Assembly: GCA_900473795.1 (NCBI GenBank)
Contig: UCMT01000052.1
Location: 62,001 to 126,000, forward strand
Reading direction: 5' to 3'
From: Hyphomicrobiales bacterium
GTDB lineage: Bacteria > Pseudomonadota > Alphaproteobacteria > Rhizobiales > Rhizobiaceae
Length of the DNA stretch: 64,000 nt
Under the pieces are notes generated by a model, which had not been told where the DNA came from, made no database searches, and saw nothing but the letters and a program-made list of their open reading frames with translations. Positions within the stretch are counted from its first letter, which is position 1, and each line of letters starts with the position of its first letter. A program made the translations under genes and the position numbers. Shown here piece by piece: positions 7,293-41,267 of the stretch.

Positions 7293-7353
7293 GAGAACCC
7301 CCTCGAAAAGAGAGCCGCACCGGAGACGACCGGTGCGGCGCGAGTTGTCGGGG

Positions 7354-8286
7354 CTACTTCACGTTGTCTTTGGTAACGAGTTCGATGTTGGTCTTGACCC
7401 AGCCTTCGAGCTTAGGTCCGCCGGCCACGACTTCGAGTGCCTTGTCGATCGCGTCAGCCGCCATCTGCGAGCCGAACTGGTCTACCGTCGCCAGCAGCTT
7501 GCCATCCTTCACAAGCGGTGCGACAGCCGGCACATTGTCGAAGCCGACAACCTTGATGTCGGAACGACCGGCAGCGTCCAGCGCCTTGATGACGCCGATG
7601 GCCATCGAGTCGTTGGCGGCCAAAACACCCTGGATGTCGGGATGGGCGGTCAGCATGGTCGAAAAGACGGAATTGGCTTCTTCCGTTTCCCAATGCGCGG
7701 TCCTGGAATCGAGCAGATCAAGCTTGCCTTCGGCGATCGCATCCTCGAAACCAAGCTTGCGCTGGGCGGCGTTGTCAGCCCCAGGATTACCTTCAAGGAT
7801 GACGACCTTGCCTCCAGCGCCGAGTGACTTGGCGAGGGCTTCGCCGACCATCTTGGCGCCACCCCGATTGTCCGGACCAACGAAGGCGAGATCGATGCCC
7901 GCATCCTTCTTCGCCTGCTCATCGAGCGAGACGTCGAAGTTGACGACGGTGATTCCGGCATCCATTGCTTTCTTGAGCGGGGCGACCATCGCGCGGGAGT
8001 CGGCCGGCGCAATGACGATAGCGTCAACGCCTTGAGTGATGAAATTCTCCACGCCGTTCAGCTGGCTTTCAAAATCCGTTTCATTCTGCATGCCGATGGC
8101 CTTGAGCTCGTAGTCACCGCGCTTCTTTTCGTGAGCTTCGGCGCCTTCCAGCATGTTCTTGAAGAAGTCATTGGCAAGCGACTTCATCACAAGACCGACC
8201 ACCGGCTTGTCGGCCGCGGACGCGGCTGTCGGCAGTGCGGCTGCAACAGAGAGCGCAATAATAGACGCAGCTGTAAAGAATTTCAT
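7354..8286 (-). CDS. rbsB: Periplasmic sugar-binding protein, RbsB type
   Basis: A 310-residue type I periplasmic binding protein. A signal peptide covers about residues 1-25 (hydrophobic core ASIIALSVAAALP, cleavage after ASA). The mature part starts with DKPVVGLVMKSLANDFF, a typical ribose-binding N terminus, and contains VVGFDNVP near residue 245. The ATG at 8286 is chosen because GGAGGAG is five bases upstream; the GTG two codons earlier would abut it. It is the first gene of the operon, downstream of two LacI-type operators. The protein would capture the sugar in the periplasm. Substrate is inferred from gene order only. Confidence 0.93.
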   Translation of the reverse strand: MKFFTAASIIALSVAAALPTAASAADKPVVGLVMKSLANDFFKNMLEGAEAHEKKRGDYELKAIGMQNETDFESQLNGVENFITQGVDAIVIAPADSRAMVAPLKKAMDAGITVVNFDVSLDEQAKKDAGIDLAFVGPDNRGGAKMVGEALAKSLGAGGKVVILEGNPGADNAAQRKLGFEDAIAEGKLDLLDSRTAHWETEEANSVFSTMLTAHPDIQGVLAANDSMAIGVIKALDAAGRSDIKVVGFDNVPAVAPLVKDGKLLATVDQFGSQMAADAIDKALEVVAGGPKLEGWVKTNIELVTKDNVK

Positions 8287-8472: not shown

Positions 8473-9477
8473 ATGTTGAATCCGACTGTCAAGGATGTAG
8501 CGAGAGAGGCTAGGGTTTCTGTTGGAACCGTGTCTCGCGTGCTGGCCAGAAATGAAACTGTAAATCCGGGGATCCGACAACGGGTGGAAGAGGTTATCGA
8601 AAGGCTGGGATACAGACCGAGCAGCCTTGGCAGGAGCCTGAGACTGAACAAGTCGGATATTATCGGTCTCATCATCCCTGACATCACGAATCCTTTTTTC
8701 GCGGAACTGGCCAAGCATTTGGAAACCCTCGCCTCGGCTGCGGGGTACTCTGTCTTGTTGGCGAACACCCATGATGATCCAAAAGCCGAGTGCAAGCAGG
8801 TTCAGAGCCTGCTCGGCCGCGTGCCTGCCGGGATTGTCATCGCGCCGGTCAGCGGCAGCCTGGTTGGAGGAATTTTGCCCGATGGCCTGGTGAGCGTTAC
8901 AATAGACCGCCCATTGACCGGGCATTCGCTGGTAGCGGTCGACAATTTCGAGGGTGGTCGTTTAGCGGCAAGCCACCTTCTGGAGCTCGGTCATCGCAGG
9001 ATCGGCTACATCAGTGGTCCCTCTACAACAGACGTATCTATACAGCGTCTGAACGGCTTTCGGGGCCGAATCGAGGAGGCGTCCTCCGACCGGGAGCAGG
9101 ATCTGGTCCAACTGACAGTTCTCGAAGGAAATTTTGACTACAAGTCTGGAGAGGCGATTGGACGAAAGCTCCTGCAGGGAAACGTGGGCCGGCGCCCGAC
9201 GGCAATCGCTACCGCGAACGATCAGCAGGCTATCGGCCTCCTGCGCGCTTCACGGGACCTGGGCATCCGTGTGCCGGAGGACCTATCCATCGTCGGGTTT
9301 GACGACATTCCGCTGGCGTCTCTTGTTCTACCCCGTTTGACAACGGTTCGTCAGCCGATCGAGGAGATTGCGGAAATCGCCATCCGCGCGCTTCTTGGAA
9401 GGGGACCGATTGTGGGACCGATCGCGCTGAGACCGGCTCTCGTCGAAAGAGACTCGACAGCGCCGCCCGCTTATTGA
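8473..9477 (+). CDS. rbsR: LacI-family repressor of the rbs operon
   Basis: A 334-residue LacI-family regulator. The helix-turn-helix TVKDVAREARVSVGTVSRVL and the hinge-type YRPSSLGRSLRLNKS make up the first 60 residues. The effector domain begins with IIGLIIPDITNPFFAEL and includes VSIVGFDD-like VGFDDIPLASL near residue 275. It is transcribed away from rbsB with the two operators between them, so it almost certainly represses the operon until sugar binds. The ATG at 8473 is three bases after GGAG; TTG at 8476 would give better spacing, so the exact start is unsure by one codon. Confidence 0.9.
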   Translation: MLNPTVKDVAREARVSVGTVSRVLARNETVNPGIRQRVEEVIERLGYRPSSLGRSLRLNKSDIIGLIIPDITNPFFAELAKHLETLASAAGYSVLLANTHDDPKAECKQVQSLLGRVPAGIVIAPVSGSLVGGILPDGLVSVTIDRPLTGHSLVAVDNFEGGRLAASHLLELGHRRIGYISGPSTTDVSIQRLNGFRGRIEEASSDREQDLVQLTVLEGNFDYKSGEAIGRKLLQGNVGRRPTAIATANDQQAIGLLRASRDLGIRVPEDLSIVGFDDIPLASLVLPRLTTVRQPIEEIAEIAIRALLGRGPIVGPIALRPALVERDSTAPPAY

Positions 9478-9602
9478 ACCAGTGCACAACCGGGACGCTG
9501 ATACGCCTATCGCCAACCCTTATTCTGCGCGGGTTACCTTCTGGAAAGTCGGCATGACCCGCCCGCCAACAATCGGGTTGGACCCTACTGGCTATGATTT
9601 AA

Positions 9603-10085
9603 CTATGAGATGGCAATGATCTCGACCTCTTGACCGCCTACGCCCACGATATCTCCAACAGATTTGCCTATCAGAAACTTTGCCACCGGGGACACGAAGG
9701 AAATCGATCCGGCCTTGGGATCCGCTTCATCCTCTCCCACGATACGATATGTCTGCACGCGCCCATCGCTACGGCTGAAGGTCACTGTACTTCCAAAAGC
9801 AACGGTATCAATGGAAGTTGGATCGGGGACAACCTGCGCCGTGCGAACTCTTACCGCAAAATAGCGCGTATCACGCAACGGATTAGCTGCTTGCCGCCGC
9901 CGTTCGTTTACGTCGTCGATCATGCTCGTCGCATCGTAGGCTTCGCGAGCTTGTTGCAATTGCAACTCCAGAGCCTTCAATCCCGCTTCCGTAACAAGAT
10001 TCGGATGAGGTGAAATAGGACGGTCAGGCAAGAGGGTTTCCGAAGCAGTTTCGGAACTCTCTTCCTTGGTGAAGGCAACGCTCAA
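9603..10085 (-). CDS. GreA/GreB-family transcription elongation factor
   Basis: A 160-residue protein with Gre organisation. The N-terminal part includes NLVTEAGLKALELQLQQARE, a coiled-coil-like helix. The C-terminal FKBP-like domain starts near residue 92 with TVAFGSTVTFSRSDGRVQTY, then IVGEDEADPKAGSISF, and ends with GKSVGDIVGVGGQEVEI. Gre factors enter the RNA polymerase secondary channel and stimulate cleavage of backtracked RNA. The TTG at 10085 is preferred over an upstream ATG-like start because GGAG lies eight bases before it and the resulting MSVAFTKEES N terminus fits relatives. It is not the housekeeping greA, which is usually about 158 residues with a different N terminus; a specialised paralogue is likely. 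Confidence 0.8.
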   Translation of the reverse strand: MSVAFTKEESSETASETLLPDRPISPHPNLVTEAGLKALELQLQQAREAYDATSMIDDVNERRRQAANPLRDTRYFAVRVRTAQVVPDPTSIDTVAFGSTVTFSRSDGRVQTYRIVGEDEADPKAGSISFVSPVAKFLIGKSVGDIVGVGGQEVEIIAIS

Positions 10086-10394
10086 TTTCGCACTCCGATC
10101 AGGCGCGGTATACTCTTCCGGCGTGCGGGGCGATTTGCCCCACACGTTTGTCAAAACAATGTATACACTGACAATAAACGAACCGCCAATCTTGACCCAT
10201 CGGTCGCCGACGCGATCTTGTTCTACGAAGTTTTCCGGTCGTCGCGGGCAAGTGTGAAGAGGCAGTATCCGTCCATTTCTGCGCAGCGCGCGAGCCAGCG
10301 AGCGGCATGAGATCCGGGCTTTTCCGAACCCCGCCGAGCACTCGGGAGACGGACCCTCGACAGTGCGGACTAGAAAAACGCGGTTCTCAATCTC

Positions 10395-11600
10395 CTATCC
10401 TACGTAGCTACGCTTTCGGAATGGGAGCGCCAACCGCCCGAGTGTGATGCCCCAATTGAGAATGGCAATAACCAAAGTCGTCTTCAGCAGAGCAGATAAA
10501 CCCAGGTAAACAATGACCTTGCCCGCAATAAACGGATAGCCGAACACGCCAATAAAATAGGAAAGGCTGAAAAGCAGCAAGGCTTGGGGAGTTTGGCCTG
10601 CTGGCGCCTGATTTGCCGCCAGACCGTTAATGACTGAATAGGTAAGGCCATATCCGACGCCCAGAATGATGGCAGCGAGCAGGTAGGTCGGGCCTGAGTC
10701 GACAAGTTCTATGAACATCAAAATCGAAACGACAATCAGACCCGTGAGCACGCTGGATGAAATCAAAGGGTCGCGTTTTACGACGAAACCGGCCACGAGC
10801 AGGCGGCAGGTAATCGCCGCGCTCATGAAGCCCAAAAAGAACAACGAATAATCGAGCTTATGCGCTGCGGCAAAGCTGGTCTGGAAGCTTGACAACCCGC
10901 CAAAGATGCAGCCGCCCAATCCCACCATGATGATAGGAAAAATCGCTTTGGAACGAAGAACCTCGCCTGCTGCGGCACGGTCAATCCGGCAAACCGGAGC
11001 TGCGCCTGTGTAGCTACGACGAAGCGGACCATCTAGGATGAAGAAAAACAAGCCGCCCACGAGCGCCGCTATGGCTGCGATGCCGAACGCCGTCTCTACG
11101 GGAAGGCCCAAGGACGACACGGCGCGCGCCACCAGAGGGCCGGTTCCGATGCCGCTCATCATGCTCCCGGAGAGGAGAGCGAAAAATTTTATCCGGTGAG
11201 CCGGCTCGACTAGTCTGGCGACTATGATCGGGCCCAATGTATAAAATATCCCTCAACCGATTCCGAGCATCAGGCCGCATATAAGCATCGCCGTTCCCAT
11301 GCCTGGCGCCACTGCGAATCCCCCACACGAAAGTGCAAGAAAAAGACTTGCTACGCCAATGGATTTCGCAAACCCCAACCAATCAGTAAGGTGGCCGGAC
11401 AGAACAACTGACAAGATGGTGCTGATCATCATGACGGAAATGACCGTTCCCGCAGTCCCCTCATTTCCGCCATGATGAGACATGAGCAACGACAGAAGGA
11501 AGGTCGTGCCGTAGGGGACCGACAGAAGATAGGCGGCAAAGCAGAATATGCCGAACAATCGGGTTGGAGCAGGTGCATCGTCGGAGATATTGGTGGCCAT
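10395..11600 (-). pseudogene. MFS transporter interrupted by one in-frame TGA
   Basis: The frame from ATG 11600 to the stop at 10395 would encode a 401-residue, roughly twelve-helix MFS transporter, but codon 116 is TGA (11253-11255). The sequence either side reads MLGIG-stop-GIFYTLGPIIVARL without any shift, so one TGG-to-TGA change explains it. The N part has MFS features such as SGHLTDWLGFAKSIGVASL. The downstream 280-codon part could start at TTG 11237 but would lack the first helices. It lies opposite an XRE-cupin regulator at 12006, which may control it. Substrate unknown. A sequencing error is the alternative. Confidence 0.8.
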
Positions 11601-28184: not shown

Positions 28185-29702
28185 TCAGTTCTTGACGGTG
28201 TCCTCGAGGAAAAACCGCCCGAGCGGGTTCTGGTCGAAGTTCGCGATATTTTTGCGCGAAACGTTGATGTAGGGGCTGTAGTAGAGATCGATCCAGTGGA
28301 CGTCGTCCTTGGCCATCTTCTGGATATCCACATACATCGCCTCGCGCTTGGCCGGATCGAGTTCCAGGCGGGCGGCAGCCACCAAGTCCTTAACTTTGTC
28401 ATTCTTGTAGCGGGTCATATAGTTCATGTTGGTGTCGTGACCGAGCACGAAGGTCGTCTTTTGGTCGGGGTCCAGAATGTCGTTGGTCCAGTACATCACG
28501 GAGATATCGTAGTCGCCGGCGACCAGCATATCCCAGCTCTGGCTCGGATCGACCTTCTGCAGGTTGACCGTGACGCCAGCCTTCTGAAGCTGCTGCTGCA
28601 GGAGAACAGCGATCTGCTCGTCGACCTCGTTCCCGGCATTGACGATGTAGTTGAGCGACAAATCCGACGCTCCGGCCTCCGCCAGCATCGCCTTGGCCTT
28701 TTCCGGGTCATAGGGGTACTGATAGTTGCCGTCATAGTGGTAGAGAGAGCCCTTCGGGATATAGGAGTATGCGACCTCGCCAAGCCCGAAAGTCACGGTG
28801 TCGACGATCGCCTTCTTGTCGATCGCCATGTCGAGCGCCTGGCGGACTTCCTTCTTGGCGAGCGCACCGTGCTCATGGTTGATCAGAAGATGATCCTCGC
28901 GGGTTGATGTGTCGATGTGAACATCAAGGTTCGGATCCTTCTTCAGCTCCTCCACGCGCGAGAACGGCACGAAGATCGCCGTGTCCAGCTCACCCGCCTG
29001 AACATTCAGCATGCGGGTATTGTCGTCGGGCACGGAGATCCACTCGACACCCTCGAGCTTCACGCGGTCCGCCTGCCAGAAATTCGGGTTCTTTTCGAGG
29101 ATGACGCGGTCACCGCGACGCCATTCCTTGACGGTGAAGGCTCCGGATGATGCGGTCGGTTTTTCGGCGAAAGCTTCCTCGCCTTCAACTTCCAGGGCCT
29201 TCTTCGACAGCACTGAAACGTTCGGCAGCGCCAATGTCGACAGGAACGGGGCGGATGCCGTCTTCTGCTTGACAACGAGCGTGCGGTCGTCGGCGGCTTC
29301 CGCCGTTTCGACGATCTTGTAGCTGTCGCTCCACAGCGAGCCTTCGTTGTCGCGAATGCGCAGCAGGCTGAAGGCGGCGTCTGCGGCGGTGATCTTTGAA
29401 CCGTCGGAGAATTTCGCGTCGCGGATCTTGAACGTATAGGTCAGGCCGTCATCGGACACCGTCCAGCTTTCGGCCAAGCCGGGCTCCAGCTTGGTACCGG
29501 TCTTATCGACGCGGATCAGCACGTCGAAGACATTGGAGAAAACCCAGTTATCGACGTTCTGCGCCGACTTGATCGGGTCGAACGTGGTCGAGTCCTCGCG
29601 GCGGCCGATGGTGAGCACCCCCGCGGCTTCGGCGATGCTTGCTCCGAATGTGACCACGGCAAGCACCGTGGCTATGCTTAAACTCTTCCATCTGCTGTTC
29701 AT
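28185..29702 (-). CDS. Peptide ABC transporter substrate-binding protein (family 5)
   Basis: A 505-residue periplasmic binding protein of the DppA/OppA family. The signal peptide covers about residues 1-27 (ATVLAVVTFGASIAEA). The mature N terminus GVLTIGRREDSTTFDPIKSAQ and the later LEPGLAESWTVSDDGLTYTF are standard family blocks. It is the last gene of the unit pip-dppB-dppC-dppDF-dppA, which is unusual because binding proteins are normally first. The ATG at 29702 is placed six codons after the fused ATPase stop region, preceded by AAAGGGA. The ligand would be a short peptide or, by analogy with the PipR system, an amino-acid-derived plant compound. Confidence 0.9.
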   Translation of the reverse strand: MNSRWKSLSIATVLAVVTFGASIAEAAGVLTIGRREDSTTFDPIKSAQNVDNWVFSNVFDVLIRVDKTGTKLEPGLAESWTVSDDGLTYTFKIRDAKFSDGSKITAADAAFSLLRIRDNEGSLWSDSYKIVETAEAADDRTLVVKQKTASAPFLSTLALPNVSVLSKKALEVEGEEAFAEKPTASSGAFTVKEWRRGDRVILEKNPNFWQADRVKLEGVEWISVPDDNTRMLNVQAGELDTAIFVPFSRVEELKKDPNLDVHIDTSTREDHLLINHEHGALAKKEVRQALDMAIDKKAIVDTVTFGLGEVAYSYIPKGSLYHYDGNYQYPYDPEKAKAMLAEAGASDLSLNYIVNAGNEVDEQIAVLLQQQLQKAGVTVNLQKVDPSQSWDMLVAGDYDISVMYWTNDILDPDQKTTFVLGHDTNMNYMTRYKNDKVKDLVAAARLELDPAKREAMYVDIQKMAKDDVHWIDLYYSPYINVSRKNIANFDQNPLGRFFLEDTVKN

Positions 29703-29722
29703 GGTCACTGTTCCCTTTGTTG

Positions 29723-31447
29723 CTATTGCGTGCTGATGAGTGATCGGAATCGAAGGGCCCGCGGCGTCTTCGACTCGCTGCGCGGCGGCAAATCTCCTTG
29801 TGGCAATGGCTTGTCCGGGTCGATGTCGGGAATGGCGCTAATCAGCGCCGCCGTATAGGCGTGGCGCGGGTTGGCAAACACAACGTTGCAGCGACCTTCC
29901 TCGACGATTTCGCCGCGATGCATAACGACGACCCGGTCGCAGAGATTGCGGACGATGGCGAGATCATGGGCGATGAAGAGCAACGTCAGGTTCATCCGCA
30001 CCTTGAGATCGCGAAACAGCTCGATGATCTGCGACTGGATGGTGACATCGAGGGCAGCGACGCATTCATCGGCGATGATCAGCTTCGGATTGACGGCGAG
30101 CGCTCGCGCGATACCGGCGCGCTGGCACTGCCCGCCGCTCATGCTGCGTGGAAGGCGGGTCGCGAATGAGCGGTCCAGTTCGACAAGATCGAGCAATTCG
30201 CCGATCCTATTCGAAATGCCCACCTGTGACGTGTTGCCTTGCACCGCCAGAACTTCGGCAAGCATGTCGCCGATGGTCAGGCGCGGGTTGAGGGCGTTGT
30301 AGGGATCCTGAAACACCATGGCCGCCTCGGTCCGCAGTTTTGCCAGTGTCAGACGTCTCTGCTGGGCAAGATCAGATCCCTCAAAGCTAATGTGGCCAGA
30401 CGTCAGCGGCGTGAGCCCGAGAATGGCGCGGGCCAGCGTACTCTTGCCGGAACCGCTTTCGCCAACGATGCCGACGGTCTCGCCCGGCATGATCCGCAAG
30501 CTGACACCATTGACGGCGGAGATGTTCATTTTGCCTTTCTTGAAAAGACCCAGACCCGGCGTCGGAAAACGCACCACCAGATCGTCGATTTCCAGTAGGG
30601 GTCGTGCGGTCATTTGCGGCGCAACCTGCGTGACCGCCATCACGCCGCCCTCCTCCGGCATCGACGGATGGCTTTTCAAAAGGCTGGCCGTATAGGCATG
30701 CTGCGGCTCGGCAAGAACGCGGCGCTTGGGACCCTTTTCCAGAAGCTGGCCGTTGCGCAGCACGGCGATGCTGTCGCAGGTCTGGGCGACGATGCCGAGA
30801 TCATGAGTGATCAGGATGATTGACAGACCGCGTTTGTCGCGCAGGTCCAACAGCAGACGCAGGATCTGCGCCTGGATGGTGACGTCGAGCGCCGTGGTCG
30901 GCTCGTCGGCGATCAGGATTTTCGGATTGCAGGACAGAGCTATAGCGATCATGGCACGCTGGCGCATGCCGCCGGAGAGCTCGTGCGGATAACTGTCAAA
31001 TTGCCTCTCGGGATGAGGAAACCCGACCTGGCCGAGGATATCGACCGCAGCAAGCCGTGCCTGGTCGCGGCCAAAGCCCTGATGATAGCGGATACCTTCG
31101 GCGATCTGGTCGCCAATACGCATGACAGGATCCAGATGGCTGGTCGGGTTTTGGAAGATCATGCCGATCTCCACCCCGCGCACTGCGCGCATCACATCTT
31201 CATCGAGCGCCAACAGGTCCCTGCCCCCGAGCAGAACAGAGCCGCCGGTGATGGCGATCGCGGGGGAAGGCAAAAGTTTGACAAGCGCGCGGCAGATCAT
31301 GCTCTTGCCAGAGCCGCTTTCGCCGACCAATCCGAGGATTTCACCCCTGCAGAGGTCGAAGGAGACGGCATCGATAAGCGTACGGGTTTCGCCGTCGATC
31401 GAAACTCTTGCCGTCAGGTCGCGGACGGAAAGAACCGGGCCGGTCAT
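29723..31447 (-). CDS. Fused peptide ABC transporter ATPases (DppD-DppF)
   Basis: A 574-residue protein with two complete oligopeptide-type ATPases in one chain. Domain 1 (about 1-265) has Walker [10 protein letters not shown] near residue 35, signature [15 protein letters not shown] and DEPTTALD. Domain 2 (about 290-555) has Walker [10 protein letters not shown] near residue 330, signature [15 protein letters not shown] and DECVAALD. In most operons these are separate genes. Walker B of domain 2 has DEC rather than DEP, a mild deviation. The ATG overlaps the permease stop as ATGA. It powers import through the two permeases encoded upstream. Confidence 0.92.
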
Positions 31448-32298
31448 TCGTTCACTCCCAGCCATTCGCCAAGACCATCGCCCAGGAGGCTAAAGCCGAA
31501 GGCCAGTACGACGATGGACAGGCCCGGGAACAGCGTGATCCACCAGGCCGTGGTGATGAAGCTCTGGCCCTCGGCCACCATCACACCCCATTCGGCGAGC
31601 GGCGGCTGAACGCCAAGGCCGAGATAGCTGATCGCCGCGCCATTGAGCAGCACAAGCACTGCATCCGACATGGAAAAGACAATGGAGCCGGCAACCGCAT
31701 TCGGCAGGAGGTGGCGGAACATGATGCGAGCGCGGCCAAAACCAAGGCTGACGGCGGCCACCGCATAGTCGCTGCTTTTCAACACCAGCATCTGCGCTCG
31801 GATCAACCGCGCATAGGAGACCCAGCCGACCAGGGCCATGGCGATATAGAAGCTCGACAGTCCCGGTCCGAGGATGGCGATGATCGACAGCATCAGCACA
31901 AGAAAGGGAAAAGCGAGGACTATGTCGACCAGCCGCATGAAGACCGTATCGACAAAGCCGCCGAAGAAGCCCGCAACAGTACCGATGAAGGTACCGATGA
32001 GAAATGGAAAGATGACGCCGATGACGGCGATCTGCAGGTCGACGCGGGTGCCCCAGATGACGCGCGAGAGAATATCCCGGCCAAAATTGTCGGTGCCAAA
32101 GGGATGGTCAAGCGACGGCATGGCGAGACGGACGGCTGCGTCCTGATAGATCGGGTCATAGGGTGCGATCAACGGCGCGGCGAGGGCGACAGCCAGGAAT
32201 AGTCCGAGTATTCCAGCGCCGATCGTCCACGTCATATGCCGGCCGAGGAAACGGCTCCAGGGCACGTTGACGCGGGTGGCCGTAGCAGCTGAGGTCAT
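31444..32298 (-). CDS. Peptide ABC transporter permease, DppC type
   Basis: A 284-residue inner-membrane permease. It has an N-terminal helix (WTIGAGILGLFLAVALAAPL), the block FGTDNFGRDILSRVIWGTRV near residue 92, and the EAA loop with ARIMFRHLLPNAVAGSI near residue 195. About six helices are evident. It overlaps both neighbours by four bases (ATGA), showing tight translational coupling with DppB and the fused ATPase. It forms the transport channel with the DppB protein. Confidence 0.92.
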   Translation of the reverse strand: MTSAATATRVNVPWSRFLGRHMTWTIGAGILGLFLAVALAAPLIAPYDPIYQDAAVRLAMPSLDHPFGTDNFGRDILSRVIWGTRVDLQIAVIGVIFPFLIGTFIGTVAGFFGGFVDTVFMRLVDIVLAFPFLVLMLSIIAILGPGLSSFYIAMALVGWVSYARLIRAQMLVLKSSDYAVAAVSLGFGRARIMFRHLLPNAVAGSIVFSMSDAVLVLLNGAAISYLGLGVQPPLAEWGVMVAEGQSFITTAWWITLFPGLSIVVLAFGFSLLGDGLGEWLGVNE

Positions 32299-33233
32299 AG
32301 CCGGACCCTCGGATCCAGGCTGACCGTGACGATGTCGGCGAAGAAATTGACGAGAACCGTGGCGCAGGCAAAAACCATGGCGACACCCTGCACCACCATG
32401 TAATCGCGCGAGAAGATGGCCCGCACCAACAGTTGCCCCATCCCAGGAAGGGCAAAGACCGTTTCGACGACGACGGTGCCGCCGATGAGCCAGCCGGTAT
32501 TGACGGCCAGCAGATTGACTGTCGGCACCAGCGAGTTTGGCAGGACATGCCGCCAGAAGACGATGTTTTCCGGCATGCCGCGCGCTCGTGCCGCAGTCGC
32601 AAGATCGGATTTCAACGCGACGATCATCGCCGCCCTCAGGCTTCGTGTCAGCACCGCCGAGAGCGACAGCGCGATGGTCAGGCTAGGCAGAGCGAGATGC
32701 GCCAGCTTGTCGCCGATTGTTTCGCCATAACCCGACACCGGAAAGATGCCGAGCCGGACCGAAAACAGGATGATTAGCATTAGCGCCAGCCAGAAGGGCG
32801 GAAAACCGATCCCAAATGTGGAGACGATCCGCACCGCATGATCCGCAAGACGGCCGTTGTTGCGCGCTGCGATCGCAGACATCGGCACTGCGATCAGGAT
32901 AGACAGGAGAACGCTCGTGAGGACCAGGGACAGGGTCGGCTCAATACGGGTGGCGATCAGCTTCAACACGTCGATCTTGTACAGAATCGACTTGCCCATT
33001 TCCCCTTTGCCGAGATTTTCGAGAAAATAGAAATATTGCAGCCACAGCGGCTCGTCGAGGCCGTATTGCGCTCGGATGCGGGCAATTGCCGTCGGCGTAG
33101 AGCGGGTGCCTAGCAGTACGCGAGCCGGATCGCCGGGAATGAGGCGCACCAGAATGAAGGTTATGATGCTGATCCCAAAAAGCACCGGCAGGAACTGCAC
33201 TGGCCGGAACAGGACGAACCTATATCGGTGCAT
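32295..33233 (-). CDS. Peptide ABC transporter permease, DppB type
   Basis: A 312-residue inner-membrane permease. The first helix region VQFLPVLFGISIITFILVRLIPGDP is cited for its core FGISIITFILVRLIPGDP. Further features are the loop RSTPTAIARIRAQYGLDEPL and the EAA region ARGMPENIVFWRHVLPNSLV near residue 200. The ATG at 33233 is preferred to GTG 33245 because AAAGGTG precedes it at a good distance. It lies 55 bases after the iminopeptidase gene in the same direction, so peptide import and proline release appear to share a transcript. Confidence 0.92.
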   Translation of the reverse strand: MHRYRFVLFRPVQFLPVLFGISIITFILVRLIPGDPARVLLGTRSTPTAIARIRAQYGLDEPLWLQYFYFLENLGKGEMGKSILYKIDVLKLIATRIEPTLSLVLTSVLLSILIAVPMSAIAARNNGRLADHAVRIVSTFGIGFPPFWLALMLIILFSVRLGIFPVSGYGETIGDKLAHLALPSLTIALSLSAVLTRSLRAAMIVALKSDLATAARARGMPENIVFWRHVLPNSLVPTVNLLAVNTGWLIGGTVVVETVFALPGMGQLLVRAIFSRDYMVVQGVAMVFACATVLVNFFADIVTVSLDPRVRL

Positions 33234-33287
33234 GCGCGTGCACACCTTTCTGCCACCGGATCTCAGCCGCCATCGGCTTTTGTGTCA

Positions 33288-34181
33288 TCATGATGCCGCC
33301 CCGCGTCGTGACAGGAAATCAAGTAAGGCCGGATAGTAGGCCTGCGGATTCTCGTAGAACGGCATGTGGCTCGCGTTGGCAAACACCGTCAACTCCGCAT
33401 TCGGCAGACCGAGCTTCATGCGAAGCGCGCAGGCCGGCGTTAGTTCGTCGTGTTCGCCACAAGTAATCAGAACCGGGACCGTAATTTTCGGCAGGTCCGG
33501 GACGCGATTCCAGTCCTTCAGGTTGCCGGTGTAGAGAAACTCGTTTGGTCCCTGCATGGTGCCGTAGGGACCCATGTTCCAGTCGTCCAGCGACCGCTTG
33601 ACCGGGGCCGGCCAGATAGAGAGGCGGCAGACGTGCCGGTAGTTGAGGATGGTGATCGCTGCCAGATATTCCGGATGATCGATCGTCCCCTGCGCCTCGT
33701 GCTTCTGCATCATGGCAATCGTTTCGGACCCCAGGGCCGCGCGCAGGCGCTCGAGTTCCTGAACCAGATGCGGTATGTCGGCGACCGTATCTTCGAGGAT
33801 CAGCGTTTTCAGGTTCTCCGGATAGGTCAGCGCATAGTCGATGGCAAGCCAGCCACCCCAGGAATGGCCGAGCATATGCACCTTGCCAAGGTTCAGTGCC
33901 TTGCGCACCGTCTCGGCTTCCTCGACATAACGGCCGATCGTCCAAAGGCCACTATCCGCCGGACGGTCTGATGCGCCAGTGCCGAGTTGATCGAAGGCGA
34001 CGATGCGGTACCCCTCGTCGACGAGGCAGGAATGCGCCTCGCGCAAGTAGTCGCATGGTAGCCCCGGTCCGCCGTTCAGGCAGAACACCACCTCGTCGCC
34101 GGTTCCGAAGGAATATGCGACGACCTTGAAGCCATCAACCTCGACCTCAAAGCGCTCGTCGGGCTTGATCTCCCGCCACAT
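33288..34181 (-). CDS. pip: Proline iminopeptidase (alpha/beta hydrolase), copy 1
   Basis: A 297-residue cytoplasmic S33-family hydrolase that removes N-terminal proline from peptides. The oxyanion-hole motif is NGGPG near residue 36 (HGGPG is usual, so His is replaced by Asn). The nucleophile elbow is GHSWGG near residue 104. The acid is likely the Asp in GEHDELTP near residue 242, and the catalytic His is in ASHMPF near residue 270. It is the first gene of the peptide ABC operon and is divergent from a LuxR solo gene, with 138 bases between. This arrangement is the hallmark of PipR/OryR-type systems, in which the LuxR protein activates pip. Confidence 0.9.
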   Translation of the reverse strand: MWREIKPDERFEVEVDGFKVVAYSFGTGDEVVFCLNGGPGLPCDYLREAHSCLVDEGYRIVAFDQLGTGASDRPADSGLWTIGRYVEEAETVRKALNLGKVHMLGHSWGGWLAIDYALTYPENLKTLILEDTVADIPHLVQELERLRAALGSETIAMMQKHEAQGTIDHPEYLAAITILNYRHVCRLSIWPAPVKRSLDDWNMGPYGTMQGPNEFLYTGNLKDWNRVPDLPKITVPVLITCGEHDELTPACALRMKLGLPNAELTVFANASHMPFYENPQAYYPALLDFLSRRGAAS

Positions 34182-34277
34182 TCCGGTCTCCGAAAAAATC
34201 GCTTGCCCATCTTTTGAGCATGGCTAATTTTTAGCGGAATATCGGTTCTGCGCCAGCTATAAGAAGTGATAGGATCG

Positions 34278-34287
34278 CTGCCGGCAG
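34278..34287. promoter_or_regulatory. Candidate lux-box-like palindrome between pip and luxR
   Basis: CTGCCGGCAG is a perfect 10-bp palindrome 32 bases upstream of the luxR start, in the divergent control region. Lux boxes are usually 18-20 bp with weaker outer arms, so this could be a core. It could instead be chance in GC-rich DNA. Confidence 0.35.
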
Positions 34288-34319
34288 GTTCAATCGCATG
34301 TATGACTTGGAGTTCAGCT

Positions 34320-35099
34320 ATGCTTGACGATATCGGTGAGATCAGACAGCGTTTCTCGGCAGAAGCCACACTTGAGGGCCGCATCGATCAGGTGTTTGAA
34401 GCAATGAAACGGCTGGGATTTGATGCGCTGATCTACGACTATACGCCGGTGCCCTATGATTTGGCCGGCGACTTGATGATCCCGTCGCTGTTGAAGCTCC
34501 GCAACATTTCCAACGACATGCACGAATACTGGTGCGAACGCGGCTATTTCCGCATCGATCCCGTCCAGCAACTTGCGCTGCGCACGACGACGCCCTTCTT
34601 CTGGAACTACGACAGGAATGCCGGCACGCTGATCAATCGCTTCATGAACGAGGAGACGGCCCCGGTGGCGCATTATCTGCGCGAGCGCGACATGTCGTGC
34701 GGCGTGACAGTACCCGTGCACATGCCGCGCGGCGCCTATGCCACCGTGACGGGCCTGCGTCTCGGCGACAAGCGCGATTTCGAACGGGATGCCGGCCATG
34801 TGCTTGCCGATTTTGGCCTGCTCGCCCATGTTTTCCATGAAACCGCCTATCCGGTTTTTGACCGGGACACACGGGCATCGACGAAGATGCGGTTGACCGA
34901 ACGCGAGCGGGAATGCCTGCGCTACTCGGCCGAAGGCCTCTCCGCCAAAGAGATCTCGCGGATCATCGATCGTTCGGTACCAACCGTGGTCATGCACCTC
35001 AATGCAGCGGCGAAGAAACTCGGCGCCAAGAACCGGACCCAAGCCGTGGTGCGCGCCACCCACTATCGCCTGCTCGACGACACATCCTATTACTTATGA
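34320..35099 (+). CDS. LuxR-family solo regulator of the plant-associated (PipR/OryR) type
   Basis: A 259-residue quorum-sensing-type regulator. Residues 20-175 form an autoinducer-binding domain and 192-247 a GerE/LuxR helix-turn-helix (LTERERECLRYSAEGLSAKE). Counting from the invariant Asp80 (TraR Asp70, in RIDPV), the residues at TraR positions 57 and 61 are Met67 and Trp71 rather than Trp and Tyr; Trp95 matches TraR Trp85. Met57/Trp61 is the known signature of LuxR solos of plant-associated bacteria, which respond to plant-derived compounds instead of AHLs. No luxI gene is present. GGAG lies seven bases before ATG 34320. Flanking proline iminopeptidase genes on both sides are its likely targets. 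Confidence 0.9.
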   Translation: MLDDIGEIRQRFSAEATLEGRIDQVFEAMKRLGFDALIYDYTPVPYDLAGDLMIPSLLKLRNISNDMHEYWCERGYFRIDPVQQLALRTTTPFFWNYDRNAGTLINRFMNEETAPVAHYLRERDMSCGVTVPVHMPRGAYATVTGLRLGDKRDFERDAGHVLADFGLLAHVFHETAYPVFDRDTRASTKMRLTERERECLRYSAEGLSAKEISRIIDRSVPTVVMHLNAAAKKLGAKNRTQAVVRATHYRLLDDTSYYL

Positions 35100-35165
35100 T
35101 AGCTGCCGATCCCGGCGCACCCGCATTATGGTTTCCCCATCTTGAGCGAATGGATGGAGAAGAAC

Positions 35166-36074
35166 GTGGCGACGGTGGCTGTTGAGGAAGGTTTCATGCC
35201 ATTTCGCGAAAACCGTACATGGTATCGCGTCAGCGGATCGATCGGTTCTCCCCTGCTGCCGCTGGTGGTCGCCCATGGTGGCCCCGGCTGCACGCATGAT
35301 TATGTCGATTCCTTCAAGGATATCGCAGCCCTCGATGGCCGCCCCGTCATCCATTACGACCAGCTCGGCAATGGCAACTCCACGCGACTTCCGGAGAAAG
35401 GCCCGGACTTTTGGACGGTGTCGCTGTTTCTCGAGGAACTCGACGCGCTTTTGAGCCACCTCGGTATTGCCAGCCGCTATGCCTTCCTCGGGCAGTCCTG
35501 GGGCGGCATGCTCGGCGCGGAACACGCCGTGCGCCAGCCGGAAGGTCTGAAGGCACTCGTGATTGCCAATTCGCCGGCCAATATGCACACGTGGGTGGCC
35601 GAGGCCAACCGCCTGCGCCGCGACCTGCCGCAGGTGGTGCAGGATACACTGCTGAAGCACGAGGAAGCCGGTACCCTGACCGACCCGGACTATCTCGCCG
35701 CCTCTCGGGTGTTCTACGCCCGCCATGTCTGCCGCGTCGTGCCCTGGCCGCCCGAAGTGGCTCGCACCTTTGCGATTATGGATGTGGACAACACCGTCTA
35801 CCGCAACATGAACGGCCCGACCGAATTCCATGTCATCGGCACGATGAAGGACTGGACCATCGAGGATCGCCTGTCACAGATCTCAGCGCCGACTCTGTTG
35901 ATCTCCGGGCGTCATGACGAAGCAACCCCGGAGGTCGTTCGCCCATACGCGGACAATGTTCCCGATTGCCGCTGGGTGGTGTTCGAAGACTCCAGCCATA
36001 TGCCGCATGTCGAGGAAAAAGCCCTTTGCCTTGCGACTGTCTCAGACTTTCTCAAGCTGCATGACGAAAGTTGA
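35166..36074 (+). CDS. pip: Proline iminopeptidase (alpha/beta hydrolase), copy 2
   Basis: A 302-residue S33-family hydrolase. The oxyanion motif [11 protein letters not shown] is near residue 38, the nucleophile elbow GQSWGG near residue 108, the likely acid Asp in SGRHDEATP near residue 252, and the catalytic His in SSHMPH near residue 281. GTG 35166 is chosen because GGAG lies six bases upstream; ATG 35154 and TTG 35142 are in-frame alternatives with poor ribosome sites. It follows the LuxR gene by about 65 bases in the same direction. It differs clearly from copy 1 in sequence and keeps the canonical His of HGGPG, so the two may have different peptide or amide substrates. Confidence 0.88.
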
Positions 36075-36476: not shown

Positions 36477-37199
36477 CTACTTTCCATCAAGCCACTCTTG
36501 CAGCTCTGCCTCAGCCCGCTCCAGAGCGCTGTAATTCAGGAGTTTGCGCAGGAAAGCGACTGTGACGGCGCGGGCGCGGAGATTGAAGCGGCCATCCTCG
36601 TGGTCGTCGCCGGCCGTCTGGTACACGTCGAGCTTGTCGTATAGCTGCTGCAAGCGGTTCTGCACGCTGCGCAGCGAGAGACCCCGGCGTTTGGCGATGG
36701 CCCGGTCCGTGAGGCCAAGCGCGATATCAACGAGGATCTCATATTCGGAATCGGTGAAGCCGTTCGTCTGGCCGAGGCTCTTCTGCTGCAAGCCCCTCAC
36801 CTCGCGGTCGATGACGCATTGGCTCTCGATGAAGATCGAGCGTAGCGCAAGCTTCAGCCGCTCGTCGGAGGCAGATTTCAGCACATAGCCATAGGCGGCG
36901 CCGTCCGGCACGATGCGGGAGACGCCGCGCACATAGGCCTCGTCCGAATAATTCGACCAGAACAGGATGCGGGTCTCCGGCCGCTCCTTCCAAATCGTGC
37001 GCGCCGCCTCGATGCCGTTGCGGCTCGCCATCTGCAGGTCCATGACGATGTGCGCCGACTTGTGGTCGCGGGCGAGCTTCTCGCCGACGGTTCCATTCTC
37101 CGCCTCGATCACCGTGTCGCATTCCGGGAGGGCCGCGTGGACCGCCTCGTGCAGATAGGACCGGTGCAGCGGGTCGTCCTCGACGATCAGAACCTTCAT
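36477..37199 (-). CDS. Response regulator, receiver plus LuxR-type HTH
   Basis: A 240-residue cytoplasmic regulator. The receiver domain has the acidic pair in IVEDD at residues 7-9, phosphoacceptor Asp54 in VMDLQM and Lys108 in YVLKSAS. A NarL/LuxR-type helix-turn-helix follows at about residues 148-200 (FTDSEYEILVDIALGL, then SLRSVQNRLQQLYDKL). A C-terminal extension of about 35 residues (LLNYSALERAEAELQEWL) is helical. It lies 13 bases downstream of the histidine kinase gene. The pair faces away from the sugar ABC operon at 38730 and probably controls it. Confidence 0.9.
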   Translation of the reverse strand: MKVLIVEDDPLHRSYLHEAVHAALPECDTVIEAENGTVGEKLARDHKSAHIVMDLQMASRNGIEAARTIWKERPETRILFWSNYSDEAYVRGVSRIVPDGAAYGYVLKSASDERLKLALRSIFIESQCVIDREVRGLQQKSLGQTNGFTDSEYEILVDIALGLTDRAIAKRRGLSLRSVQNRLQQLYDKLDVYQTAGDDHEDGRFNLRARAVTVAFLRKLLNYSALERAEAELQEWLDGK

Positions 37200-37212
37200 C
37201 TCGCCTATCTCC

Positions 37213-38451
37213 TCAATTCGGCCCGCTCGCCGGGTCCTGCGGCACGAGCGGCAGCACGACGCGCACCACAGTCCCGCAATTGTTGTAGCCGGGCACGGTC
37301 GTGAAGCGCGCCGAGATGAGCCGCGCACGGGTCTTCATGTTGTCGATGCCTCCGCCGATCCGTCCACGCGTCTTGGCGAGCCCGGTCCCGTCGTCGGAGA
37401 TTTCGATCGACAGCCGGTCGTCGCCGGTCTCGAGCCGCACCATCACGGCCAGTGGGGCAGCATGTCGCACCGCATTATTGATCGCCTCCTGCGCGATACG
37501 GAAAAGCGCGACGCTGACGGTCGGTTCCAGTCGCTCCAGAGCGCCGTTCGTCTCGTCGACGAGGCTCCATTCGATGCCCGATCCGGTGTCGCGGGTCGAT
37601 CGGTCCAGATGATGTTCGATCGCTTGGGCGAGGCCGAAGAGCTGGAGCACCGAAGGTTTTGCCTGCTCGATGATCTGCCTCAGGTCCTGCATGCAATGCT
37701 GCAGGGAACGGGAGATGGGCTCTAGCGCCTCTGGCGGCACCTCGACGTTGCGCGACAGCCGATCGATCCGGCGGGCGAGCCGCGTCAGGTCTGCAAGCGT
37801 CTGGTCGTGCAGATCCATGCCGATCCGCTGGCGTTCCTGCTCCAGTGCTTCGGTAAGCTTCAGCGCGCCTTGCCGCAACCCCTCCTCGCGGGCGCGGGCT
37901 TCTGCCTCCACAATGGCTGAGCGTTGCGCCTGCTCGGCCGCCTGCAGAGCGAAGAAATAGGGCGTCAGCAGGTCGGCGATGATGCGGGCGCGTTCGATAT
38001 CGTCCATCGTATAAACGCCCGCTGTTTGCGACGAACAGGAGAGCGCCGCGATGATCGTACCCTGCACCTTCATCGGCACATGCAGGCGGCTGCGCAGCGA
38101 TTGTTCGACGATCGGCCGTTTGAAGGCGCCCTCGAAGTGGAAACGCGGGTCCGACATGGCGTCGTCTGCAAGGAGAAAATCCACCTCGCCCCGGAGCAGC
38201 GAGCGGATGGGGCTGTTGACTACGGGCGCGCCGGCAAGGTCGCCCCAAGCGGTCTCGATGCCCGTCTCGTAGGCCGTGTGGTAGTTGCCACCCTCAAGGA
38301 GTACACAGACATCGAGATGGTCGTGCGGAATTATATGAGCGACCTCGGCCGCGACCGAACGGATGGCCGAGCGGAAATCGAGCTGGCCCGCGAGCAGCCG
38401 GGAAATGCCGAGATAGTGGTCGAACATGGCTGCGGGTGCGAGATGCAGCAT
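37213..38451 (-). CDS. Soluble GAF-domain histidine kinase (HisKA_3 type)
   Basis: A 412-residue kinase with no membrane helix, so it senses in the cytoplasm. Residues 20-170 form a GAF domain (SLRSRLHVPMKVQGTIIAAL). A coiled coil around 175-210 leads to the HisKA_3 dimerisation helix ERQRIGMDLHDQTLADL with His215 as the phosphorylated residue. The HATPase domain has EAINNAVRHA near residue 323 and SDDGTGL near residue 358. A strong GAGGAGG lies eight bases before the ATG. It is co-transcribed with the response regulator and divergent from the sugar ABC operon, 278 bases away. The GAF ligand is unknown. Confidence 0.9.
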   Translation of the reverse strand: MLHLAPAAMFDHYLGISRLLAGQLDFRSAIRSVAAEVAHIIPHDHLDVCVLLEGGNYHTAYETGIETAWGDLAGAPVVNSPIRSLLRGEVDFLLADDAMSDPRFHFEGAFKRPIVEQSLRSRLHVPMKVQGTIIAALSCSSQTAGVYTMDDIERARIIADLLTPYFFALQAAEQAQRSAIVEAEARAREEGLRQGALKLTEALEQERQRIGMDLHDQTLADLTRLARRIDRLSRNVEVPPEALEPISRSLQHCMQDLRQIIEQAKPSVLQLFGLAQAIEHHLDRSTRDTGSGIEWSLVDETNGALERLEPTVSVALFRIAQEAINNAVRHAAPLAVMVRLETGDDRLSIEISDDGTGLAKTRGRIGGGIDNMKTRARLISARFTTVPGYNNCGTVVRVVLPLVPQDPASGPN

Positions 38452-38729
38452 TTTCGGTTCCTCCTCAAGACGGCAGGCTCCTCAACCCGCCGCGATCGCT
38501 TCGCAGTAAACGCCGCTGAAGCAGCGTCGTCTTGCATAAACCCGCAGCTTGTTTTGCAAAACCCGCAAACGACTTGCCGCCTCGCCCCTGTACAGGCCGC
38601 TCAATCTCCCGCATCCTGCCTTTACTGAGGGGAGGAAGCTCAGTGCAAGAACAATTTTCACTCAGACCCATTTTGGGCAGGCAGGAGTGAAGCGATCCGC
38701 CGACCAGCGCGATCATGAGGGAGAGAGAC

Positions 38730-39746
38730 ATGACAATCCGTAAGATGCTTCTGGCATCAGCCGCTATCGCTTGCGCCGCGATGCCCGTTTCCGCCTTTGC
38801 TGACACGTCGACCAAAAAGATCGCCCTTTCCAACAACTACGCGGGGAACTCCTGGCGCCAGGCCATGTTGACGAGCTGGGAAAAGGTGACCGGCGAAGGC
38901 GTGAAAGCCGGCGTCGTTGCCGCAGCCGACGCTTTCACTACCGCCGAGAACCAGGCGACGGAACAGGCCGCGCAGATCCAGAACATGATTCTGCAGGGTT
39001 ACGACGCGATCGTACTGAACGCCGCCTCGCCGACGGCGCTAAACGGCGCGGTCAAGGAAGCCTGCGATGCCGGCATCACCGTCGTTTCCTTCGACGGCAT
39101 CGTGACCGAACCCTGCGCCTGGCGCATCGCCGTCGACTTCAAAGAAATGGGCCGCAGCCAGGTGGAGTACCTGTCGAAGAAACTCCCGGATGGCGGCAAC
39201 CTGCTTGAGATCCGGGGCCTTGCCGGTGTCTTCGTCGACGACGAGATCTCGGCGGGCATCCACGAGGGCGCCAAACAGTTCCCGCAGTTCAAGATTGTCG
39301 GCTCCGTACATGGAGACTGGGCGCAGGACGTGGCGCAGAAGGCTGTTGCGGGCATCCTGCCCAGCCTGCCCGACATCGTCGGCGTGGTGACGCAAGGCGG
39401 CGACGGTTATGGTGCCGCACAGGCAATTGCTGCGACCGACCGGAAGATGCCGATCATTGTCATGGGCAACCGCGAAGACGAACTGAAGTGGTGGAAGGAG
39501 CAGAAGGACGCGAAGGGCTACGAGACCATGTCCGTGTCCATCGCGCCGGGCGTCTCCACGCTCGCCTTCTGGGTGGCCCAGCAGATCCTTGACGGCAAAG
39601 AGGTCAAGAAGGACCTTGTCGTGCCTTTCCTGCGCATCGACCAGGACAATCTCGAAACGAACCTCGCCAATACCCAGGCCGGTGGCGTTGCCAACGTGGA
39701 ATACACGCAGGAAGACGCAATCAAGGTCATAGAGTCGGCCAAGTAA
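38730..39746 (+). CDS. Periplasmic sugar-binding protein (type I, RbsB-like)
   Basis: A 338-residue precursor with a signal peptide (LLASAAIACAAMPVSAFA, cleavage near residue 25). The mature N terminus KKIALSNNYAGNSWRQAML and QNMILQGYDAIVLNAASPTA mark it as a Peripla_BP_4 sugar-binding protein. The ATG at 38730 follows GAGGGAGAGAG. It is the first gene of a five-gene unit: binding protein, ATPase, two permeases and an SMP-30 lactonase. The terminal lactonase suggests an aldose that is oxidised to its lactone after import. The divergent kinase/regulator pair is the likely control. Confidence 0.92.
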   Translation: MTIRKMLLASAAIACAAMPVSAFADTSTKKIALSNNYAGNSWRQAMLTSWEKVTGEGVKAGVVAAADAFTTAENQATEQAAQIQNMILQGYDAIVLNAASPTALNGAVKEACDAGITVVSFDGIVTEPCAWRIAVDFKEMGRSQVEYLSKKLPDGGNLLEIRGLAGVFVDDEISAGIHEGAKQFPQFKIVGSVHGDWAQDVAQKAVAGILPSLPDIVGVVTQGGDGYGAAQAIAATDRKMPIIVMGNREDELKWWKEQKDAKGYETMSVSIAPGVSTLAFWVAQQILDGKEVKKDLVVPFLRIDQDNLETNLANTQAGGVANVEYTQEDAIKVIESAK

Positions 39747-39815
39747 ATTTTCCGGCGAAAGCCGCGCGACCGCGAATGCGCGCGGCATTCTTTGCGAGCA
39801 GATGTGGCGGGCAGT

Positions 39816-41267
39816 ATGAATGGCATTCAGAAGGCGGTGATCGCGGTTGATGGCGCCAAGGTGAGTTTCGGCGCGGTCAAGGCACTCGACGGCGTCACGC
39901 TCCGCGTCATGCCGGGTGAATGCGTGGGGCTCGTCGGACACAATGGAGCCGGCAAGTCTACGATCGTCAGCGTGATCAACGGCGGCCTCACACCACAGGT
40001 AGGAAGCGTCGCGAGCGATGGTGAGCGGCTTGAGCGCTACGGCATCAACGCCGCCCGGGTCCGCGGTGTGCGCTGCGTCTTCCAGGAGCTCTCGCTCTGC
40101 CCCAACCTGTCCATCGTCGAGAACACGCGCATCATGCATCGCGACCTCGGTGGCTTCGGTTGGCGGACGCGCGCCGAAAAAATCATCGAGCAGAGCCTCG
40201 ACACGGTCTTTCCCGGCCATAACATCGGCAGCAGTCGGGCCGTCGGCGACCTTTCAATTGCTGAGCGGCAGATGGTCGAGATCGCCATGGCTTTTTCCGA
40301 CGCCGGCATTGCGCCGCGGCTGGTGATCCTCGACGAACCGACCTCGTCGCTCGATGCAAGCCTTGCGCGCCAGATGCTCGACCATGTCCGTCGTTTCGTC
40401 GCCGCAGGCGGGTCCGTCATCTTTATCTCGCATATCCTGCATGAGATCCTCGAAACCTCCGACCGCATCGTCGTCATGAAGGACGGACGCGTCGTCGCCG
40501 AACGTCCGGCGCATGGCTTTGACCACCACGGCCTCGTGGAAGCCATGGGCACCGTTGCGAAGGAGGAGACCGGGCAGCGTTCGTCGCGCGAACAGCCTAC
40601 CGCTCCGCTCATCCTGTCCCATCAGGCGGCGGGCCTTTCCTTCACGGCGCACGAGGGTGAGATCATCGGATTGGCGGGTTTGGCGGGCCACGGGCAGACC
40701 GAGCTGCTGCTCGCCTTGCATGCCGCCCAGTCAAGTAACTGGCGGCCCGAGCGCGATCCGCTTGTCACCTTCGTTGCGGGCGACCGCCGTCTTAACGGCG
40801 TCTTCGAACTGTGGAGCATCCTGCGAAACTTCTCCATCGCCTCGCTCGGCGACCTGTCCCGGCGCGGCCTGATCCTCGCACAAGAAGAGGAGACGAAAGG
40901 CGCCGACTGGAAGCGGCGGATCGAGATCCGCACGCCCGATTTGGACAACCGAATCCTGTCGCTTTCCGGGGGCAACCAGCAGAAGGTTCTCTTCGCCCGC
41001 GCGCTTGCGACGCGCGCACGGATCGTATTGATGGACGACCCGATGCGCGGCGTCGACGTCGGAACCAAGCAGGAGGTCTACAAGATCATCCGCGAGGAAG
41101 CCGCGCGCGGCCGCACCTTCGTCTGGTACTCGACGGAGATGGACGAGGTGCGCCTCTGCGACCGCGTCTACGTCTTCCGCGAAGGCCGCATCATGGACGA
41201 ACTCGCTGCCGACGCCGTCAACGAAACAAACATCATCGCCGCCTCCTTCTCGGGGGTCCCCGCATGA
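39816..41267 (+). CDS. Sugar ABC transporter ATPase (two-domain, RbsA-like)
   Basis: A 483-residue double ATPase. Domain 1 has Walker A GHNGAGKST near residue 41, an atypical signature LSIAERQMVEIAM near residue 147 and Walker B LVILDEPTSSLD. Domain 2 lacks a proper Walker A (GLAGLAGHGQTELL) but has LSGGNQQKVLFARAL near residue 385 and Walker B IVLMDDPMRGVD with DDP in place of DEP. One canonical and one degenerate site is usual in this family. The end overlaps the next gene by four bases (ATGA). Confidence 0.92.
   Translation: MNGIQKAVIAVDGAKVSFGAVKALDGVTLRVMPGECVGLVGHNGAGKSTIVSVINGGLTPQVGSVASDGERLERYGINAARVRGVRCVFQELSLCPNLSIVENTRIMHRDLGGFGWRTRAEKIIEQSLDTVFPGHNIGSSRAVGDLSIAERQMVEIAMAFSDAGIAPRLVILDEPTSSLDASLARQMLDHVRRFVAAGGSVIFISHILHEILETSDRIVVMKDGRVVAERPAHGFDHHGLVEAMGTVAKEETGQRSSREQPTAPLILSHQAAGLSFTAHEGEIIGLAGLAGHGQTELLLALHAAQSSNWRPERDPLVTFVAGDRRLNGVFELWSILRNFSIASLGDLSRRGLILAQEEETKGADWKRRIEIRTPDLDNRILSLSGGNQQKVLFARALATRARIVLMDDPMRGVDVGTKQEVYKIIREEAARGRTFVWYSTEMDEVRLCDRVYVFREGRIMDELAADAVNETNIIAASFSGVPA

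Follow-up and report, generated by a model that had tools for sequence, protein, structure and literature searches.

Several LuxR solos of plant-associated bacteria are known to be flanked by proline iminopeptidase (pip) genes. For XccR, OryR, PsoR and NesR the order pip/transporter, luxR, pip has been tabulated (PMC4338825, PMC10134790). Pseudomonas GM79 has two pip genes in an arrangement described as 'similar to' that of nesR, and both enzymes were assayed (PMC4981722). Two pip genes are also found around koyR (PMC11064500). A locus of this kind lies in the stretch analysed here, a window of 64,000 nt from contig UCMT01000052.1 of a Hyphomicrobiales bacterium (Rhizobiaceae). It is an ordinary, well-preserved rhizobial member of the known plant-sensing module, and its double-peptidase layout has already been published. 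The analysis adds, as judged from sequence, an oriented operator-like box on each side of luxR that is unique in the genome, which is a modest addition.

Read from luxR outwards, the minus strand carries pip1, two permease genes, a fused ATPase gene and the gene for a binding protein, while luxR and pip2 are on the plus strand. Since pip1 heads an apparent operon with the importer genes (two permeases, fused double ATPase, binding protein), the functional unit extends to 28185. The parts are:

28185–29708, minus strand: substrate-binding protein of a peptide-type ATP-binding cassette (ABC) importer, AapF-like; residues 27–507 match AapF in the Protein Data Bank (7kz8/7kz9).
29723–31465, minus strand: fused double ABC ATPase of the importer (ABC_tran twice and oligo_HPY).
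31444–32298, minus strand: importer permease of the OppC type (BPD_transp_1 and OppC_N).
32295–33245, minus strand: importer permease of the OppB type (BPD_transp_1 and BPD_transp_1_N).
33288–34181, minus strand: pip1, AapA-like S33 aminopeptidase with NGGPG and GHSWGG (TIGR01250, 271 bits; NGGPG side of the peptidase tree).
34203–34220, no strand assigned: second conserved dyad, TTGCYCA-N5-TGRGCA, between pip1 and box 1, from an alignment of 25 upstream regions.
34254–34273, minus strand: box 1, operator-like site facing pip1 (dyad 34257–34272), identical in 75 of 81 rows.
34320–35099, plus strand: luxR solo of the NesR/PipR type, 259 aa, with M67, W71, D80 and W95 (Autoind_bind and GerE domains; tree and residues).
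35086–35105, plus strand: box 2, operator-like site facing pip2 and lying over the luxR stop codon (dyad 35087–35102), from the box comparison.
35166–36074 (open frame from 35142), plus strand: pip2, PipA-like proline iminopeptidase with HGGPG and GQSWGG (7a6g, 474 bits; HGGPG side of the tree).

Genome contigs were scanned with the LuxR protein, which yielded 83 relatives; 80 were kept, and all 80 fetched loci carry the identical seven genes, with order and orientation unchanged. Chance is therefore not an issue, although the sample consists of the nearest relatives of the query and distant ones are not represented. Two annotations as 'proline iminopeptidase-family hydrolase' stand under the match in 18 of the 20 records listed, out of 419 matching records of a plasmid collection. 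An earlier note on this DNA, made from the sequence alone, had treated the double arrangement as a rarity and stated that known systems have one pip gene. That premise was wrong, because published loci (two flanking pip genes are described for PipR, NesR and KoyR) as well as the relatives carry two, and the gene-order comparison likewise does not support a rarity.

The NesR locus of Sinorhizobium/Ensifer (nesR, SMc04032) likewise has the order pip/peptide transporter, nesR, pip (PMC10134790), and the group table lists W57M and Y61W for the NesR group, as found here (PMC4338825). The loci of a Sinorhizobium (L065) and of Ensifer aridi LMR001 (L061) contain all seven genes, with LuxR proteins 74–76% identical to that of the window, and nesR of LMR001 was reported to adjoin a pip gene (PMC8877191). 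Judged on these two loci, SMc04032 itself being outside the comparison, the NesR locus shows no clear difference from the window. With the PipR-AapA-F-PipA system of GM79 the window shares the gene order (aapA-F divergent from pipR-pipA), the two peptidase types, a binding protein of the AapF family and the position of a box about 71 bp ahead of the pipA start, as for pip2 here (PMC4981722). There are differences as well. The LuxR protein of the window is 47–49% identical to those of the pseudomonad-type loci (L106–L109, so called because the L106 binding protein scores 1029 bits against AapF), it has Met at TraR position 57 where PipR has Trp (PMC7301841, PMC4981722), and the ATPases are fused into one gene, unlike in GM79. 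The upstream box is intergenic and strongly conserved here, whereas the GM79 site overlaps the pipR coding sequence, and the box sequences differ. Two further systems can be likened by their published descriptions. KoyR of Klebsiella michiganensis LDS17, a gammaproteobacterial locus, has pip genes on both sides, lux-box-like repeats in both promoters, adjoining ABC transporter genes and Met57/Trp61 (PMC11064500). OryR, XccR and XagR of Xanthomonas have the Met/Trp pair and an adjacent pip gene, as here (PMC10134790, PMC4338825), but an APC-type transporter gene was reported in place of the ABC importer (PMC4981722).

Comparison of the two intergenic regions around luxR revealed one 20-bp motif on both sides. 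The six rows in which box 1 is not identical still agree with it at 19 of 20 positions. In 25 aligned rows 18 of the 20 box columns are invariant, compared to 4 of 118 columns in the remaining intergenic stretch. For box 2, 78 of 81 rows match at 16–18 of 20 positions in the expected orientation; two rows show a reversed match (15/20), and in one the box was not found (10/20). When the two boxes of the window are each read towards the adjacent peptidase gene, 17 of 20 bases agree, versus 6 of 20 in the opposite sense, so each box points at its own peptidase. Both dyads are imperfect, with 10 of 16 symmetric positions.

The start of pip2 is more likely the GTG at 35166 than the TTG at 35142 or the ATG at 35154. 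In 77 relatives, the start chosen by its ribosome binding site is GTG in 68 cases, ATG in 7 and TTG in 2, and the chosen start lies at a conserved distance from the box upstream of it. Dyad 2 is centred 71.5 bp ahead of the GTG, and the centre of the 20-mer lies 69.5 to 71.5 bp ahead of the chosen start in 54 of the 77 relatives with a measurable distance. In GM79 the repeat at pipA is centred at −71.5, and its mutation abolished activation (PMC4981722). In main-text passages, supplements not being covered, we found no description of two boxes in rhizobia; for KoyR both are described (PMC11064500).

The second dyad, at 34203–34220, is present in most of the 25 aligned rhizobial rows. Genome-wide its pattern gave 10 sites at up to two mismatches versus 1 for the control, and 34203–34220 was the sole exact site.

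Within the window the two box matches compare with 0.01 expected. In the whole genome (6.39 Mb) the box pattern with up to two mismatches was found at the two module sites only. The relaxed dyad CTATNANNNNTNATAG also occurs at these two places only, against three occurrences on each strand for the reversed control. Within the genus, luxR is present in 11 of 26 genomes, and precisely these 11 also carry the binding protein and two boxes each, neither more nor fewer, at up to two mismatches. Every one of the 22 boxes adjoins luxR, and none was found in the other 15 genomes. pip1 is present in 10 of the 11; the remaining one, G400 (locus L115), is without it. At the level of the family, luxR is present in 23 of 199 genomes and a box at up to one mismatch in 18; 27 of the 28 sites lie beside luxR and one is in a genome without luxR (G570).

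How far boxes and operons vary together can be seen in 35 further loci. pip2 lies downstream of luxR in 22 of them, and a downstream box (up to four mismatches) was matched in 18 of the 22, the misses being L106–L109. Seven loci have the importer and pip1 and no downstream pip2. All seven have the upstream match and none has the downstream match; one of the seven, L141, has only about 360 bp of sequence after luxR. In L145, L146 and L152 pip2 is divergent, an unrelated importer lies downstream, and the box match is on the importer side. In L119, on a plasmid of Shinella sp. HZN7, a D-aminopeptidase gene (8860–10422) takes the place of pip2 behind luxR, and the downstream box was not found. Three of the seven, L139, L150 and L154 (about 5999–7894), have tandem NGGPG pip1-like genes at the head of the importer operon and no pip2 behind luxR, and L154 has an S58 peptidase gene convergent to luxR (8848–9933). 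L111 has neither pip nor box, and L113 and L114 have outgroup LuxR proteins. The position of the box thus appears to follow the flanking operons.

Gene content, orthology, the residue pattern, the two oriented boxes and their uniqueness can be read from the DNA itself. From the GM79 model (PMC4981722) we infer uptake, activation and degradation of a signal. The ABC importer would take up a plant-derived compound, probably peptide-like or an amide, and the imported compound would bind the LuxR solo. LuxR may then bind box 1, ahead of the operon of pip1 and the importer, as well as box 2, ahead of pip2, and switch on both. Both aminopeptidases would degrade the signal or related compounds. The strong conservation of box 1 predicts direct control of the importer, and hence both positive feedback by import and negative feedback by hydrolysis. 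The circuit looks self-contained, because no further consensus operator was found in the genome. We consider it likely that this whole circuit, from import through LuxR binding and activation of both operons to signal degradation, operates in this NesR/PipR-type module.

With regard to the ligand, the binding protein matches AapF (7kz8/7kz9) over its length with 813 bits. According to its legend, 7KZ9 shows HEHEAA together with AapF from Pseudomonas sp. PDC86 (PMC11168924). A ligand related to HEHEAA is plausible for the binding protein by this sequence match; a close AapF homologue was reported not to bind HEHEAA (PMC10134790).

Several observations weigh against the proposed circuit. With the reversed pattern as control, scattered sites also turned up, 11 of them in the genus and 14 in the family. 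Six of the 23 family genomes with luxR have no box at up to one mismatch; these six are among those with the more divergent LuxR proteins, and their sites are present at two or three mismatches. Because six of the seven loci without pip2 form one clade in the LuxR tree, the number of independent events linking box and pip2 is small. In GM79 the effect of PipR on the aapA promoter was small, compared to the strong control of the importer proposed here (PMC4981722). In both S. meliloti and E. aridi, nesR mutations have broad effects on stress and symbiosis (PMC5977203, PMC8877191), and the regulon predicted for NesR comprises about eight genes (PMC4560400); a purely local regulon does not directly account for these findings. 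PsrR of Kosakonia showed no response to root macerate or HEHEAA (PMC7301841).

Beyond the circuit itself, we tentatively suggest that the LuxR solo of the Rhizobiaceae acts as a closed local regulator whose operators number exactly two in the whole genome, that these operators come and go in evolution jointly with the flanking hydrolase operons, and that a second aminopeptidase is under selection and can be supplied in various ways. This may well not hold. The second enzyme would be PipA behind luxR, or a tandem AapA-like enzyme as in L139, L150 and L154, or perhaps a member of an unrelated family, such as the D-aminopeptidase of L119 or the S58 peptidase of L154.

We consider it doubtful that the regulator acts far outside its module through sites weaker than the consensus. 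The broad nesR phenotypes and the predicted regulon of about eight genes speak for such an action, and two weaker sites with three mismatches do exist elsewhere in the genome. However, the search at up to three mismatches gave 4 sites in total versus 14 for the reversed-pattern control, the module sites are the only ones at up to two mismatches, the relaxed dyad is limited to the module, and the mutant phenotypes may be indirect.

Both peptidases exceed the curated cut-off of NCBIfam TIGR01250 (168 bits), pip1 with 271 and pip2 with 265 bits. In a tree of 58 module peptidases from 33 fetched loci and the window, 27 HGGPG rows fall on one side (support 100); the other side holds 30 NGGPG rows and one further row whose motif could not be read. 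Alphaproteobacterial loci carry both types, and so do pseudomonad-type loci. In structure matches pip2 scored 474 bits against the proline iminopeptidase 7a6g, while the best match of pip1 scored 169 bits. By sequence, pip1 is AapA-like and pip2 is PipA-like, and the two are different orthologous types. As stated in the earlier note, a divergent NGGPG and a downstream HGGPG enzyme bracket luxR. The NGGPG/HGGPG motif separates the two types (one row unread). GHSWGG/GQSWGG was tried as a second type marker and fails, as the luxR-proximal copies of L139, L150 and L154 pair NGGPG with GQSWGG.

The earlier note had proposed either two substrates or one signal-modifying and one nutritional enzyme. 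The first proposal fits the GM79 assays, in which alanine is the preferred substrate of AapA, and PipA acts on proline and to a somewhat lesser degree on alanine (PMC4981722, Table 1). The second, in which one enzyme would trim the signal to its active form and the other would serve nutrition, we regard as unlikely. The enzymes are indeed two separate old types, and their GM79 orthologues differ in specificity. Nevertheless, in GM79 with leaf macerate the loss of either peptidase increased the response about twofold and the loss of both about sixfold (PMC4981722), so single losses shift the response in the same way and the double loss shifts it more. The location of pip1 inside the importer operon and the same box at both genes also fit a shared role.

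The open reading frame of luxR, from the ATG at 34320, contains PF03472 (Autoind_bind, 99.5 bits) and PF00196 (GerE, 53.6 bits). M67 and W71 lie 13 and 9 residues ahead of D80, which matches the spacing of W57 and Y61 to D70 in TraR (the invariant residues being those given in PMC4338825). Translation and alignment thus confirm the register given in the earlier note, counted from Asp80, with Trp95 kept. The residues D70, P71 and W85 of the pocket for N-acyl homoserine lactones (AHL) are retained as D80, P81 and W95. Trp at TraR position 61 is found in 29 of 29 module LuxR proteins, while seven of seven others (six of them different) have Tyr. Met at position 57 is found in 26 of the 29, with Trp in L106 and L108 and Phe in L151; in the four pseudomonad-type rows L106–L109 the pair is Trp/Trp. 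The Met/Trp pair pointed out in the earlier note is present here, but it is not a mark of PipR, because PipR (Trp/Trp; PMC7301841, PMC4981722) and the four pseudomonad-type copies keep Trp at 57.

The LuxR tree was built from 29 module rows, five LuxR loci of the same genome and two distant relatives (L003 and L004 being the same ORF), with OryR, XccR, NesR and TraR themselves not included. The 29 module proteins, the pseudomonad-type ones among them, form one side (100/98) against the seven others, with a warning about long branches from the program. The pocket residues and the gene context, and more tentatively the tree, support the assignment of this protein to the plant-associated solos (OryR/NesR/PipR), as the earlier note had suggested from the sequence.

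A cognate luxI is absent at the locus. The genome has one LuxI-type synthase, and nesR of S. meliloti has a promoter bound by ExpR/AHL, which would be an AHL input at another level (PMC5977203); still, an AHL-responsive solo that hears AHL from elsewhere in the genome or from neighbours, with peptidases and importer under its control and serving ordinary peptide nutrition, is very improbable even with D80, P81 and W95 retained, as the synthase lies on contig C55 next to a different LuxR (the module is on C44), the residues at positions 57 and 61 are the Met/Trp pair known from the non-AHL group, AHLs elicited no response from OryR- and PipR-type proteins (PMC4981722), and the tree sets the module proteins apart from the other LuxR proteins of the genome.

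Of the module proteins, LuxR changes fastest among the relatives, and its tree departs in places from the importer tree, with mixed test results. An exchange of the receptor within the module was considered, since the LuxR of the window is nearer to Rhizobium copies than to those of loci that share its importer. In topology tests on LuxR, importer, pip1 and pip2 from 38 loci and the window, the grouping of the window group with the importer-sharing group was rejected for LuxR (p-AU 0.003; grouping picked after the identities had been seen), and it has support in the importer tree. For the larger clade seen with the importer, the LuxR data gave no rejection (p-AU 0.0525), and the tests for pip1 and pip2 gave 0.075 to 0.41. 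With these mixed tests the exchange is not claimed. In L111 (6450–8746), a LuxR of the same type (44% identical, Met/Trp) lies beside an amino acid permease gene with no recognisable pip nearby. This locus, which has the same family code as the pseudomonad-type rows, is an exception to the rule of the adjacent pip.

Past pip2, from 36477 to 41267 and outside the conserved module, the ORFs on the minus strand resemble a response regulator and a sensor kinase, and those on the plus strand a sugar-type ABC importer. The gene at 38715, the sole one checked in this region, has a Peripla_BP_4 domain.

In the rhizobial loci examined, the module normally has a pip gene on either side of luxR, which corrects the apparent oddity of the locus. 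The two oriented boxes provide a simple sequence marker for the system. They also make it testable whether regulators of the NesR type act on their own module only or globally, as the broad nesR phenotypes suggest. If the tentative reading as a closed local regulator is true, the hydrolysis of the signal, rather than any particular enzyme, would be the conserved part of the circuit.

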